This document shows positions 54,513 through 59,871 of a stretch of 64,000 bases of DNA, one piece after another. Position 1 is the stretch's first letter. The number at the start of each line of letters is the position of its first letter. The notes below the pieces were generated by a model, which worked only from the letters and a program-made list of their open reading frames with translations, had not been told where the DNA came from and searched no databases. Source of the DNA: Verrucosispora sp. NA02020 (GTDB lineage Bacteria > Actinomycetota > Actinomycetes > Mycobacteriales > Micromonosporaceae); contig NZ_CP054923.1 in NCBI RefSeq assembly GCF_013364215.1, forward strand, positions 3,534,001 through 3,598,000. Direction: 5' to 3'. Position numbers and translations under genes: made by a program.

Positions 54513-54516
<4 letters not shown>
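54508..54516 (+). other. Two-codon open frame overlapping the ATPase start
   Basis: ATG GGA TGA (54508-54516): its stop overlaps the ATG of the next gene (54513). The ribosome-binding site AGAGGA is better spaced for this first ATG than for the real start, so initiation, two codons and re-initiation may occur. Confidence 0.4.
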
Positions 54517-56050
<1,534 letters not shown>

Positions 56051-56054
<4 letters not shown>

Positions 56055-56134
56055 GCGAGCGGAGCGAGCGAATCGGCGGGCTCAGGGCGGTGGTGCCTCA
56101 TGGCGGCACGGAGCGAAGCGGAGTGCCGTCATGA
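56051..56134 (+). repeat. 27-codon coupling cassette, tandem copy 1
   Basis: An open frame of 27 codons plus stop (starts MSERSERIGG, ends ERSGVPS). The ATG overlaps the ATPase stop (ATGA); the TGA overlaps the next cassette's ATG. GCGGAG lies seven bases before that ATG, so the cassette carries the ribosome-binding site of whatever follows. The 80-base unit is repeated exactly at 56131. Confidence 0.85.
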
Positions 56135-56214
56135 GCGAGCGGAGCGAGCGAATCGGCGGGCTCAGGGCGGTGGTGCCTCATGGCGGCACGGAGCGAAGCG
56201 GAGTGCCGTCATGA
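56131..56214 (+). repeat. 27-codon coupling cassette, tandem copy 2
   Basis: Identical over 80 bases to copy 1. Its stop overlaps the permease ATG at 56211, again with GCGGAG seven bases upstream of that ATG. Perfect identity means a recent duplication or gene conversion. Confidence 0.85.
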
Positions 56215-57275
56215 GCGAACGGATCAAGCCCCTGCTCGGGCACCGGCTGTTCTGGCCGATCGCCGTCCTGGTGGTGATGCTGGCGGCGAACACGATCTAC
56301 CGCCCCGGCTTCCTGTCGATCGAGATGAACAACGGCCACCTGTACGGGACCCCGATCGACATCCTCCGGTTGAGCGCGCCGCTGATCCTGGTCGCGCTCG
56401 GCATGACCCTGGTCATCTCCACCGGCGGCATCGATCTCTCGGTCGGGTCGATCTGCGCCATCAGCGGCGCCATCGCCTGTCTGCACATCAGTCAGGCACC
56501 CGACCAGAACAGCTTCGTCACGGTGGCGACCGCACTGGCGATGGCGCTCGGGGTGGCACTGGTCCTCGGTGCCTGGAACGGCGTACTGGTCTCGGTGATC
56601 GGTATTCAGCCGATCATCGCCACGCTGATCCTGATGGTGGCCGGTCGGGGACTGGCGCAGTTGATCACCGAGGGTCAGATCATCACGATCAACTCCGGCC
56701 CGTACCGGGCGATCGGTCTGGGTCACTTCCTCACCCTGCCGTTGGCGATCTTCATCGCGCTCGGGGCGGCGTTGCTGGTCGCGGCCTTCACCCGTCGTAC
56801 CGCGCTCGGCATGATCATCGAGTCGGTGGGTGGCAACCGGGAGGCCAGCCGGTTGGCCGGCATCCGGTCGGGCCGGATGGTCTTCCTGGTCTACGTGGTC
56901 AGCGCGGCCTGCGCGGCGGTCGCCGGCTTCATGATGACGGCCAACGTGTCAAGTGCCGACGGCAACGCCGCCGGCCTCTGGGTGGAACTGGACGCCATCC
57001 TCGCGGTCGTCATCGGGGGCACCGCCCTGGCCGGCGGACGGTTCTATCTCAGCGGCACCATCCTCGGCGCGCTGATCATCCAGACGCTCACCACCACGGT
57101 GTACGCCATGAACATCTCGCCGCAGACGGCGTTGCTGTTCAAGGCGGTCGTCGTGATCGCAGTCTGCCTCATCCAGGCACCGGCGTTCCGCGCCACGTTC
57201 AACCGCCGCAAGCGCGGCACCCCACCCCCGCCGGCCCCGACGCCGCAGCGCCAGAAGGAGGAGGCTTCGGCATGA
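56211..57275 (+). CDS. Sugar ABC transporter permease (YtfT-like)
   Basis: A 354-residue CUT2 permease with about eight to ten spans. Landmarks: LVALGMTLVISTGGIDLSVGSICAISGA, GIQPIIATLILMVAGRGLAQLITEGQII, and LDAILAVVIGGTALAGGRFYLSGTILGALI. ATG 56211 is chosen because it overlaps the upstream cassette stop and follows a ribosome-binding site; an in-frame ATG at 56100 would add 37 residues encoded inside the repeats. C-terminal tail rich in Pro, Gln and Glu. Its stop overlaps a third cassette. Confidence 0.92.
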   Translation: MSERIKPLLGHRLFWPIAVLVVMLAANTIYRPGFLSIEMNNGHLYGTPIDILRLSAPLILVALGMTLVISTGGIDLSVGSICAISGAIACLHISQAPDQNSFVTVATALAMALGVALVLGAWNGVLVSVIGIQPIIATLILMVAGRGLAQLITEGQIITINSGPYRAIGLGHFLTLPLAIFIALGAALLVAAFTRRTALGMIIESVGGNREASRLAGIRSGRMVFLVYVVSAACAAVAGFMMTANVSSADGNAAGLWVELDAILAVVIGGTALAGGRFYLSGTILGALIIQTLTTTVYAMNISPQTALLFKAVVVIAVCLIQAPAFRATFNRRKRGTPPPPAPTPQRQKEEASA

Positions 57276-57355
57276 GCGAGCAAAGCGAGCGAATCATCAG
57301 GTTCAGCGCGATGGAGTCTCGTGGCGGCATGCAGCGAAGCGGAGTGACGGCATGA
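57272..57355 (+). repeat. 27-codon coupling cassette, diverged copy 3
   Basis: Same size and layout as the cassettes at 56051 and 56131 but diverged (starts MSEQSERIIR, ends QRSGVTA). The ATG overlaps the upstream permease stop, the TGA overlaps the next permease ATG at 57352, and GCGGAG is again seven bases before that ATG. Confidence 0.82.
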
Positions 57356-58341
57356 GCAGTACGTCGTTGACCACCGGGCCGAGCTGGGCGCGGCTGCCCC
57401 GGCGGCACGTGCCGGTGCTGGCCACGCTGGCCCTGCTGCTGGTCATGTACGCGATCGGTGTGTCCCAGTACCGGGCCTTCTCGAACGTCCAGGTCATCTT
57501 CAACGTCTTCATCGACAACGGTTTCCTTCTCGTCGTCGCGGTGGGGATGACCTTCGTGATCCTCACCGGCGGGATCGACCTGTCCGTGGGGTCGGTGGTC
57601 GCGATGACGGCGATGGTCTCGGCGTGGCTGCTCCAGTCGGGTCTGCCCGCGCTACTGGTGCTGGTCATCGCGTTGCTCATCGGGCCGACGCTCGGGTTCC
57701 TGATGGGCTGTGCGATCCACTTCTTCGACATCCAGCCGTTCATCGTGACACTCGCCGGGATGTTCTTCGCCCGGGGCATGTGTACGTTCATCAGTGACTC
57801 GTCGATCCGCATCACCGACGGTTTCTGGACCACGATGGCGCAGCACCGGATCGGTGATCCCGGCGGCAACTTCGTCTCGGTGAGCGTGCTGGTCGCGTTC
57901 GCGGTGGTGCTCATCGGCGCGTACGTGCTGGCGTACACCCGGTTGGGTCGCAACGTGTACGCGATCGGCGGCAACCCGCAGTCGGCGCTGCTGATGGGGC
58001 TGCCGGTGGGGCGTACCCGGATCGCGGTCTACACGATCAGCGGTCTCTGCTCGGCGATCGGCGGGATCCTGCTCTCGTTCTACACGCTCTCCGGGGCGCC
58101 GTTGATCGGGATCGGGATGGAGCTCGACGTGATCGCGGCCGTGGTGATCGGCGGCACGGTGCTCACCGGCGGTTCGGGGTACGTCTTCGGCACGGTGCTC
58201 GGTGTGCTGGTGCTCGGCGTGATCCAGACGCTGATCACGTTCGACGGTAGCCTCAACTCCTGGTGGACCAAGATCGTTATTGGCGGCCTGCTCTTCGCGT
58301 TCATCCTGCTCCAGCGCCTCATCGGCATCCGCTACAAGTGA
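57352..58341 (+). CDS. yjfF: Sugar ABC transporter permease YjfF
   Basis: A 329-residue CUT2 permease. Landmarks: [56 protein letters not shown] (typical of YjfF), and LDVIAAVVIGGTVLTGGSGYVFGTVLGVLVLGVIQTLI. Pairs with the YtfT-like permease in a furanose-type importer. ATG 57352 overlaps the cassette stop. araA follows after 27 bases. Confidence 0.92.
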   Translation: MSSTSLTTGPSWARLPRRHVPVLATLALLLVMYAIGVSQYRAFSNVQVIFNVFIDNGFLLVVAVGMTFVILTGGIDLSVGSVVAMTAMVSAWLLQSGLPALLVLVIALLIGPTLGFLMGCAIHFFDIQPFIVTLAGMFFARGMCTFISDSSIRITDGFWTTMAQHRIGDPGGNFVSVSVLVAFAVVLIGAYVLAYTRLGRNVYAIGGNPQSALLMGLPVGRTRIAVYTISGLCSAIGGILLSFYTLSGAPLIGIGMELDVIAAVVIGGTVLTGGSGYVFGTVLGVLVLGVIQTLITFDGSLNSWWTKIVIGGLLFAFILLQRLIGIRYK

Positions 58342-58368: not shown

Positions 58369-59871
58369 ATGGCAACGCATCCTGAACCCGAGGTCTGGTT
58401 CCTCACCGGAAGCCAGGCGATGTACGGCGAGGACACCCTCCGGCAGGTGGCCGAGCAGTCCCGTCAGATCGCCGCACTGCTCGACGACTCGCCGGACATC
58501 CCGGCCCGGGTGGTCTGGAAGCCGGTGCTGACCACCAGCGCGGACATCCTGGAGGTCTGCCGGGACGCCGCGGTGCAGGGTGCGGTCGGGGTCATCGCGT
58601 GGATGCACACCTTCTCGCCCGCGAAGATGTGGATCTCGGGTCTGGACGCGCTGCGTACTCCGCTGCTGCACCTGCACACCCAGGCCAACGTCCGGCTGCC
58701 CTGGGACGAGATCGACATGGACTTCATGAACCTGAACCAGGCCGCCCACGGCGACCGGGAGTTCGGTTTCATCCAGACCCGGCTCGGGGTGGCCCGCAAG
58801 ACCATCGCCGGCCACGTCAGCGACCCCCGCGTGGTCACCCGTGTCGGCTCGTGGACCCGGGCGGCGATCGGCTGGTCGGCGATGCGTTCCCTGCGCCTGG
58901 CGCGGTTCGGCGACAACATGCGCGACGTCGCGGTGACCGAGGGGGACAAGGTCGAGGCGGAGTTGCGCTTCGGTGTCTCGGTGAACACCTACGGGGTCAA
59001 CGACCTGGTGCGGGTGGTCGACGAGGTCGCCGACGCGCAGATCGACGACCTGGTCAAGGAGTACAACGACACCTTCCGGGTCGCCGCCGAGCTGCGTCCC
59101 GGCGGTGAGCGACACGACTCGCTGCGGTACGCCGCACGGCTGGAACTGGGGATGCGGACCTTCCTGGACGCGGGCGGGTTCCGGGCCTTCACCACGAACT
59201 TCGAGGACCTCGGCGGCCTGCGCCAACTGCCCGGCATCGCGGTGCAGCGGCTGATGGCCGACGGCTACGGCTTCGGCGGCGAGGGTGACTGGAAGACCTC
59301 GGTGCTGGTCCACACGCTCAAGGCGATGTCGGCCGGCGCGCAGGGCGGCACCTCCTTCATGGAGGACTACACCTACGACCTGACGCCGGGCGAGGAGTTG
59401 ATCCTCGGCGCGCACATGCTGGAGGTGTGCCCGACGATCGCCGCGGACAAGCCGAACGTGGAGATCCACCCGTTGAGCATCGGCGGTCGGGAGGACCCGG
59501 TCCGGTTGGTCTTCGACGCCGAGCCGGGACCGGCGGTGGTGCTCGGGCTGGCGGACATGGGGGAGCGGTTCCGGCTGGTCGCCAACGAGGTGGACGTGGT
59601 GCCCCCGCCGCAGCCGCTGCGCCGGTTGCCGGTGGCCCGGGCGGTGTGGCGGCCACGCCCGCACCTGGCCGGGTCGGCCGAGGCGTGGATCACCGCCGGT
59701 GCCCCGCACCACACCGTGCTCTCGCACGCGGTCGGCGTGGAGGAACTGCACGACCTCGCCGAGATGAGCCGTACCGAGCTGGTCGTCATCGACGCGAACA
59801 CCGAGTCTCGTCGTTTCGCCGACGAGCTTCGCTGGAACCAGGCGTACTACCGCCTCGCCCGGGGCTTCTGA
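58369..59871 (+). CDS. araA: L-arabinose isomerase
   Basis: A 500-residue isomerase turning L-arabinose into L-ribulose. Landmarks: [17 protein letters not shown] at the start, [48 protein letters not shown], and the metal-site region [16 protein letters not shown] with [17 protein letters not shown]. Normal family length. ATG 58369; GCGGAAGG lies about 11 bases upstream. Last gene of the arabinose operon, before a terminator hairpin. Confidence 0.96.

Follow-up and report, generated by a model that had tools for sequence, protein, structure and literature searches.

Open-frame repeat units at gene start codons of Micromonosporaceae, a putative mobile-like family consistent with a relay of translation

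Three units in an arabinose-type transporter operon

The window, i.e. the whole stretch of 64,000 nucleotides from Verrucosispora sp. NA02020 that was analyzed, contains three units of 84 nt which read from ATG to TGA and were located by direct reading of the sequence at 56051-56134, 56131-56214 and 57272-57355. They separate genes of an ABC transporter operon of the arabinose type, recognized by Pfam on the neighbors: a two-domain ABC ATPase, two BPD_transp_2 permeases and an L-arabinose isomerase. The features of the region are the following.

54513..56054, + strand: ABC transporter ATPase with two ABC domains, its TGA lying inside the first ATGA, upstream of the first array (Pfam, sequence reading)
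56051..56134, + strand: cassette unit 1, A-type, 27-codon ORF MSERSERIGGLRAVVPHGGTERSGVPS followed by the stop, with an ATGA overlap at each end
56098..56134, + strand: 3' hairpin of unit 1, TCATGGCGGCAC / GTGCCGTCATGA with loop GGAGCGAAGCGGA, next AUG in the stem (predicted fold; covariation, 60 distinct sequences)
56118..56123, + strand: GCGGAG, Shine-Dalgarno-like, 7 nt before the ATG at 56131
56131..56214, + strand: cassette unit 2, tandem copy identical to unit 1
56178..56214, + strand: predicted 3' hairpin of unit 2, same sequence as in unit 1
56198..56203, + strand: GCGGAG, Shine-Dalgarno-like, 7 nt before the ATG at 56211 (permease 1)
56211..57275, + strand: permease 1 (BPD_transp_2, Pfam), its start inside the last ATGA of the array
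57272..57355, + strand: cassette unit 3, diverged (82%), MSEQSERIIRFSAMESRGGMQRSGVTA followed by the stop
57319..57355, + strand: predicted 3' hairpin of unit 3, with one pair lost and two pairs G-U relative to the consensus stem (aligned sequence reading)
57339..57344, + strand: GCGGAG, Shine-Dalgarno-like, 7 nt before the ATG at 57352 (permease 2)
57352..58341, + strand: permease 2 (BPD_transp_2, Pfam), its start inside the ATGA of unit 3
58369..59871, + strand: L-arabinose isomerase (Pfam), which marks the identity of the operon and has no cassette before it

Each unit consisted of 27 codons plus a stop; its first ATGA was the overlap with the upstream stop and its last ATGA the overlap with the next start. 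The distance between the end of GCGGAG and the next ATG was 7 nt in all three cases (in unit 1, end at 56123 and ATG at 56131). Units 1 and 2 were identical and in tandem with a period of 80 (TRF), and unit 3 (57272-57355) was 82% identical to unit 1. The initial annotation had described three units of equal size with ATGA overlaps at both ends and GCGGAG before the ATG, two of them identical with an 80-base period and one diverged while keeping length, frame, overlaps and ribosome-binding site, and this description was confirmed in full. The tail AGCGAAGCGGAGTGNNGNCATGA, with up to three mismatches, was found three times in the window when 0.00 occurrences were expected and is not due to chance; for the head string GAGCGNAGCGAGCG by itself, allowing two mismatches at most, nine occurrences were counted against an expectation of 8.8, without any excess over chance. 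An Rfam search of positions 55900-57500 gave three matches at E≤1, every one of them under its gathering score.

Placement, distribution and reading frame of the copies

When the 84-nt unit was used as a query against its own genome (G000, 7.28 Mb), 69 matches were obtained at E≤1, self and weak ones counted, and units 70–88% identical to those of the window were present at more than 30 loci. The array census took the profile hits with E≤1e-3 (65 hits) in sampled stretches around unit matches and head-pattern hits, rather than a profile scan of the whole genome, and yielded 36 arrays; the match at 1978531 (E 0.15) was left out, and the weak matches in the islands 1340200, 1421400, 1460000 and 2568100 fell under the profile threshold and are hence outside this number. 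In 35 of the 36 arrays the last unit ended at the ATGA or GTGA start of an ORF no shorter than 104 codons (32 by script, and 2400373, 5417200 and 5497800 by sequence reading, since the profile end was misplaced there). A walk from ORF to ORF reached a long ORF in 34 of the 36, missing the array 6732589, in which an 85-nt unit is fused to the next unit, and the array 6137482, located after a regulator gene and facing the 3' end of a convergent gene. The latter has no downstream gene, and its unit, of 70 nt and out of frame, was the sole one seen in that situation. Across the genomes the arrays ranged from one to six units, the longest being a run of six tandem units in another genome (L193, G001:C124:6705-7188), which would lend itself to gauging the efficiency of a relay in nature.

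On the upstream side, an ORF of at least 60 codons in the frame of the first TGA was found in 23 of the 36 own-genome arrays (in 5417200, where the first hit is partial, the end of trpB was read from the sequence). Among the matches listed in named records, 26 of 81 arrays had no upstream ORF of at least 60 codons ending there, a few of them being near the end of the stretch, and in the trpB of the genome G048 the unit was located behind the native Shine-Dalgarno sequence (SD). Hence, the site is the start codon and not only the stop/start overlap; the insertion at ATGA junctions proposed in the initial annotation held as far as the ATGA placement is concerned, and had to be widened from stop/start overlaps to start codons in general. 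On the downstream side, 72 of these 81 arrays, again among the matches listed, led into an ORF of at least 100 codons or ran off the stretch. From the other nine among those matches, seven begin with a further unit head, one (L163) leads via a 60-nt frame into a long ORF, and one (L198) leads into an ORF of 82 codons only, which counts against the explanation given here.

Next to the arrays, Pfam domains were found in 19 of the 20 downstream proteins tested (20 of the 32 listed) and in all 10 upstream proteins tested (10 of the 26 listed). These neighbors included a PALP enzyme (trpB), trpA, porphobilinogen deaminase, glutamyl-tRNA reductase, riboflavin enzymes, parts of 2-oxoacid dehydrogenase, Fur, a proton antiporter-type subunit and ABC permeases, among others, and no common pathway was apparent among the 29 that carried a Pfam label.

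Additionally, unit sequence was found at the ends of several neighboring proteins. The C-terminus of an upstream protein can be the tail of a unit, as in the trpB product ending in SERSGAAA (loci L051 and L050), and the N-terminus of a downstream protein can be a unit head, as in a porphobilinogen deaminase beginning MSERQ-MSAAP and in the locus L020, beginning MSERQRAN (loci L020, L023 and L003). The repeat thus appears to extend real host proteins at their termini, and the annotated ends of some Micromonosporaceae proteins may derive from it.

Searches with the strict pattern of the unit were positive in 44 of 61 congeneric genomes. At the family level they were positive in 36 of 200 genomes, spread over 5 of the 44 genera, and a sample drawn across the class gave 2 positive genomes out of 394, both from its own genus, although diverged forms could escape such a strict pattern. 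As far as tested, the repeat family is restricted to Micromonosporaceae, and at least 80 loci were found in named records of Micromonospora, Verrucosispora, Plantactinospora, Paractinoplanes, Dactylosporangium and a Micromonosporaceae bacterium. No copy was detected in the viral contigs of IMG/VR with the exact pattern, nor in the plasmids of PLSDB or the phages of INPHARED by blastn with the 84-nt unit. At one permease junction (L105, genome G042) a run of ten N lay within a tandem array of units; assembly gaps may conceal or collapse such arrays in draft genomes.

Tandem copies within one locus were identical or nearly so, and arrays therefore seem to grow by local duplication. A plain tandem duplication of gene boundaries, without any dispersal, would leave this same trace; nevertheless, as an account of the whole family it is hardly credible and already refuted, given the 70–88% identity between units at more than 30 loci of one genome, the copies in other genera and the empty orthologous sites described below.

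The lengths of the units were collected in the 61 genomes of the genus with a pattern anchored at both ATGA ends and leaving 35 to 65 nt free between them. A multiple of three was found for 142 of the 145 units, which came from 44 of the 61 genomes: 84 nt (122 units), 75 (9), 81 (4), 72 (3), 78 (2), 66 (1) and 63 (1), the other three being of 85 nt. When the 84-nt units were set aside, 20 of 23 still had a length divisible by three. Among the matches listed in named records, many of them from the same genomes as the set of 61, the same was true for 97 of 98 units, and in the own genome 12 of the 14 arrays with a unit different from 84 nt were in frame, for which the chance would be about 8e-5 were lengths free (hand arithmetic). 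These unit counts are not independent events, since tandem copies and orthologous sites share ancestry.

The frame itself was open, as 104 of 108 distinct units (taken with their flanks) read from ATG to the terminal TGA without any internal stop; this count excludes 10 distinct hits for which one or both ends could not be placed within 9 nt of the projection. The four exceptions were one unit of 85 nt, one containing a run of N, the copy that precedes the convergent gene and a head-only match, which was read as a gene start. A stop/start overlap of 4 nt (ATGA or GTGA) was present in 104 of the 108 units. The 85-nt units were fused in frame to a response regulator in G048, fused to the next unit in the own genome and stopped at codon 18 in G057. 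Among the matches listed, a single unit of 83 nt was found, in G162 (L298, G162:C25:62995-63077); it is out of frame, with a stop 4 nt past the next start, and an intact unit comes after it. The shifted frame finds its TGA in ATGAGTGA, a stretch of the following unit's head for which the consensus reads ATGAGCGA, and this change perhaps compensates for the frameshift. Copies ignoring start codons, lengths varying freely modulo three and frameshifts as common as intact frames were the three observations that the initial annotation had named as contrary to its reading, and none of them is what the genomes contain.

Subfamilies, encoded peptide and 3' hairpin

Two subfamilies were distinguished by their peptides, A (MSERSERI...) and B (MSERQRANH...), with 12 of the 171 units belonging to neither; sequences containing N were left out of this analysis. 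Relative to each other they differ by one base gained after codon 4 and one base lost later, the two changes cancelling out, so that the frame is restored although about 17 bases are read in different frames in A and B. From head to end, 62 of 75 A units measured 60 nt and 73 of 84 B units measured 59 nt, with mostly 84 nt overall. The pN/pS ratio was 0.80 in 62 A units and 0.95 in 73 B units, and 0.76–1.11 in the other two frames. Since this ratio was no lower in the coding frame than in the others, the constraint falls on an open, in-phase frame and not on the peptide. That the encoded peptides are functional small proteins would agree with the retention of the frame in nearly all copies; this possibility is nonetheless very improbable, considering a pN/pS near 1 and not under that of the other frames, the stretch of about 17 nt that A and B read differently, and the frames of 7 and 13 codons that occupy the same places.

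The last 37 bases of the unit were predicted to form a hairpin, TCATG.CGGCAC / GTGCCG.CATGA around the loop GGAGCGAAGCGGA, a fold in which the following AUG is paired within the stem and the loop contains most of the SD. This component goes beyond what the initial annotation had noted. For unit 1 of the window the predicted fold had a z value of -2.80, and one of 200 shuffles folded equally well. Over 71 units (60 distinct) 96.2% of the pair cells were standard pairs, and double-sided changes were found in 22 cells against a mean of 4.6 in shuffles, 0 of 500 shuffles matching on any of five measures; when the partner was slid by 1 to 3 columns, pairing fell to at most 56.5%. Because related sequences can exceed shuffles, more weight is given to the compensations at 56/76 (GC, UA, CG, AU), 58/74 and 52/80 than to the raw count. 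Such a hairpin over the AUG would hinder independent initiation of the downstream gene. An alternative upstream hairpin, GTGCC/GGCAC, was also considered and rejected, its covariation not being above that of shuffles (235 of 500 as high).

REP and RAYT-associated elements are likewise short, present in many copies and endowed with a hairpin. The units share these traits, including the conservation of the hairpin, and they differ in that REPs are extragenic by name, whereas the units are in-phase ORFs at start codons, and in that their own genome had 0 matches to the Y1 domain. An element of this kind, in which only the RNA or DNA hairpin matters and the open frame is incidental, would account for the covariation of the hairpin. 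It would leave unexplained the multiples of three in the units of changed length, the indels that cancel out and the loss of the frame in the one copy that has no gene after it, and we consider it quite improbable.

Empty and filled sites and the proposed relay

The first permease of the operon was traced into 51 of the 61 genomes, and 30 loci were compared. The junction between ATPase and permease was filled in 3 of the 30, by two A units in the own genome, two B units in G005 and one 63-nt unit in G007. The permease-permease junction was filled in 5 of the 30, by an A unit in the own genome and by B-type units in G058, G041, G042 and G005; in G031 this junction was empty, with flanks that are nearly those of G058. 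All the remaining permease loci had a bare ATGA/GTGA overlap or start. Furthermore, at the start of trpB (30 loci) the native SD preceded the units in G048 and in the own genome, and in G003 and G055 (L130 and L138) 24-nt frames, MSEQVMA and MSAQVTA each followed by a stop, were found between the native SD and trpB, being possibly the last remains of a unit. At the trpB-trpA junction (30 loci, two of them too short to display it) units were present in the own genome, G003, G007 (with a GTG start) and G013, and a 42-nt frame in G036. Walks through these 24- and 42-nt frames still arrive at the gene start, and this is what is informative in the walks along orthologous junctions, as the lengths are there multiples of three by construction. 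Judged from these alignments, the empty, filled and relic states of orthologous junctions would be the mark of a mobile-like repeat, and the different subfamilies at one junction favor repeated arrivals.

A preference for certain start regions was also observed. A gene start reading xTGAGC, with ATGAGC or GTGAGC as its two forms, was found in 78 of 95 arrays (22 of 27 in the own genome) and a C directly before the first ATG in 84 of 95 (23 of 27), when 45 ordinary overlap junctions of the own genome, from 20 stretches of 20 kb picked by position plus the window, gave 5 and 21, respectively. A second background of 56 junctions had xTGAGC in 12.5%, although it is a poorer control because most of its loci had been chosen for having a unit. 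The 95 arrays were those left after dropping 10 of 105 whose left flank itself resembled a unit tail, and the set was also without arrays having short flanks, duplicates and those with a downstream ORF under 60 codons. The flank before the arrays showed an SD-like G at -11 and -8. With xTGAGC and the preceding C, this makes the target resemble the tail|head junction of the unit itself; possible origins of the pattern are a recombinase that reads this sequence, homology-guided copying or a later change of the start region. The left flank of an array correlated weakly with its own tail (z at most 3.2, at individual positions), and this correlation was not used.

Taken together, the data make it probable that the units belong to a dispersed repeat of Micromonosporaceae, mobile-like and non-autonomous, whose copies lie on start codons and which survives by relaying translation. 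This reading builds on the placement, the frame, the covariation of the hairpin, the absence of peptide constraint and the empty and filled sites, as observed above. An insertion of 80 bases would set a new ATGA ahead of the old one. Ribosomes would reach the original start site either after finishing an upstream gene that ends in the ATGA or by means of the own SD of the gene, and would start the mini-ORF, translate about 27 codons and open the 3' hairpin that masks the next AUG; they would then halt at the UGA overlapping this AUG and restart there, aided by the SD of the unit, the same step being repeated in tandem copies. Translation of the mini-ORF and coupled restart, as expected from established work on coupling, would make the insertion nearly silent for both neighbors, and thus tolerable and close to neutral, while copies with a broken frame would be removed because the downstream gene would be cut off. 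Against this reading, the open frame could in part guard against Rho-dependent polarity rather than serve reinitiation. Selection for translational coupling and a mobile element adapted to ATGA, the two options offered in the initial annotation, are both supported and are compatible with each other.

Movement of the repeat is suggested by the comparison of sites between species. For its route we would guess at copying or template switching through short homology, without a dedicated transposase, with which a target resembling the tail|head junction would fit. A stronger version, in which the repeat homes to start codons through the shared SD-ATGAGC context and short-homology copying, always in sense and in phase, as a self-spreading relay that rewrites the N- and C-termini of host proteins, is proposed only tentatively. 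Mobilization in trans by a Y1 (IS200/REP-type) transposase or a reverse transcriptase is unlikely. A short hairpin element without a gene of its own would suit a non-autonomous passenger, and some unit-bearing genomes contain candidates (8 Y1 matches in G048, and one partial reverse transcriptase match above the cut-off in the own genome). Nevertheless, the Y1 domain, present in 17 of the 61 genomes, was absent from G000, G005, G058, G003, G007 and G001, which are among the richest in units; the reverse transcriptase, present in 23 of 61, was absent from G058, G007 and G001, and these three genomes lacked both. As present-day drivers these enzymes were rejected, given an association that is inconsistent over the 61 genomes, with past enzymes or other families being possible.

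The alternative that the units are regulatory devices kept by the host for their benefit, in which the number of units would tune how much downstream protein is made relative to the upstream one, or the downstream gene would depend on upstream translation, is conceivable, although we regard it as doubtful. It would agree with the same-sense orientation and the placement at start codons, the covarying hairpin over the next AUG, the presence in core operons and the arrays of one to six units. It agrees less with permease junctions that are mostly empty and carry different subfamilies at one junction, and with the lack of a common pathway among the 29 labeled neighbors. A host benefit would leave traces identical to those of near-neutral persistence; the patchy occupancy between species speaks for the latter, and regulation would still be compatible with the hairpin and with so strict a placement.

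Several known systems resemble the units in part. The Rickettsia palindromic elements (RPE) are, in the available part of the source, short dispersed repeats tolerated in the path of the ribosome, with 44 insertions in R. conorii genes and 11 of 12 homologs in other species in frame (PMC10969869). They insert within genes and are incorporated into the protein, whereas the units sit on start codons as separate mini-ORFs with overlapping stop and start; an in-frame insertion within an ORF is not what was found in 35 of the 36 arrays, and fusions such as that of G048 are exceptional. The geometry of the units is that of termination-reinitiation at 4-nt ATGA overlaps (PMC6728339; review PMC12548453, both in the parts available), where strict coupling was seen in 13 of the 14 overlapping pairs tested and a structure predicted at the downstream start was suggested to prevent independent initiation (PMC6728339), the coupling studies also pairing the overlap with structure at that start (PMC6728339; PMC12548453). 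The partners are there ordinary genes, while here a repeated, movable cassette would bring the overlap, the SD and the hairpin. The pneumococcal BOX elements, as presented in the accessible part of PMC3049150, are transcribed mobile repeats that can carry ORFs, give stop codons to the ends of genes and are co-transcribed with operons; their ORFs are found on either strand, good SDs were missing from those tested and start-codon placement is not described there, whereas the units are in sense at start codons. MITEs are also short non-autonomous repeats, and the units have the same four bases at both ends. The unit has ATGA on both sides, as a target duplication would give, yet it begins with ATGA itself, and by direct reading its head ATGAGCGAGCG and its tail GGAGTGCCGGC are not inverted copies, without terminal inverted repeats. 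According to these partial sources, RPEs are the nearest in logic and BOX elements the nearest as transcribed, ORF-bearing repeats. Short interspersed repeats and ATGA coupling were each already known. No earlier description of the repeat, or of their combination in a start-codon repeat family of in-phase mini-ORF cassettes, was found in the open-licence literature, a scope that is no proof of novelty, and the available parts of PMC5082802 and PMC3364876 contained nothing on it.

Insertions at start codons should rank among the most damaging in a bacterial genome, and this repeat lives there, apparently by being translatable, even next to genes for trp, heme, riboflavin and 2-oxoacid dehydrogenase. 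The loci thereby offer dozens of natural experiments on coupled reinitiation, with one to six steps, varied hairpins and empty sister sites.

Finally, a second and different tandem family with the same architecture was observed in the own genome (L065, G000:C1 ~2570017-2570200). It consists of GTGA...GTGA frames of 21 codons including the stop (VSARNAAKRSPAVANRRSAT), with a spacing of 59, then a 9-codon frame and then another GTGA start. All that it has in common with the main family is GCAGCGAAGCGGAGT, a short stretch. In 464 kb of control stretches, four other mini-ORF bridges were found, with sequences unrelated to that of the unit.
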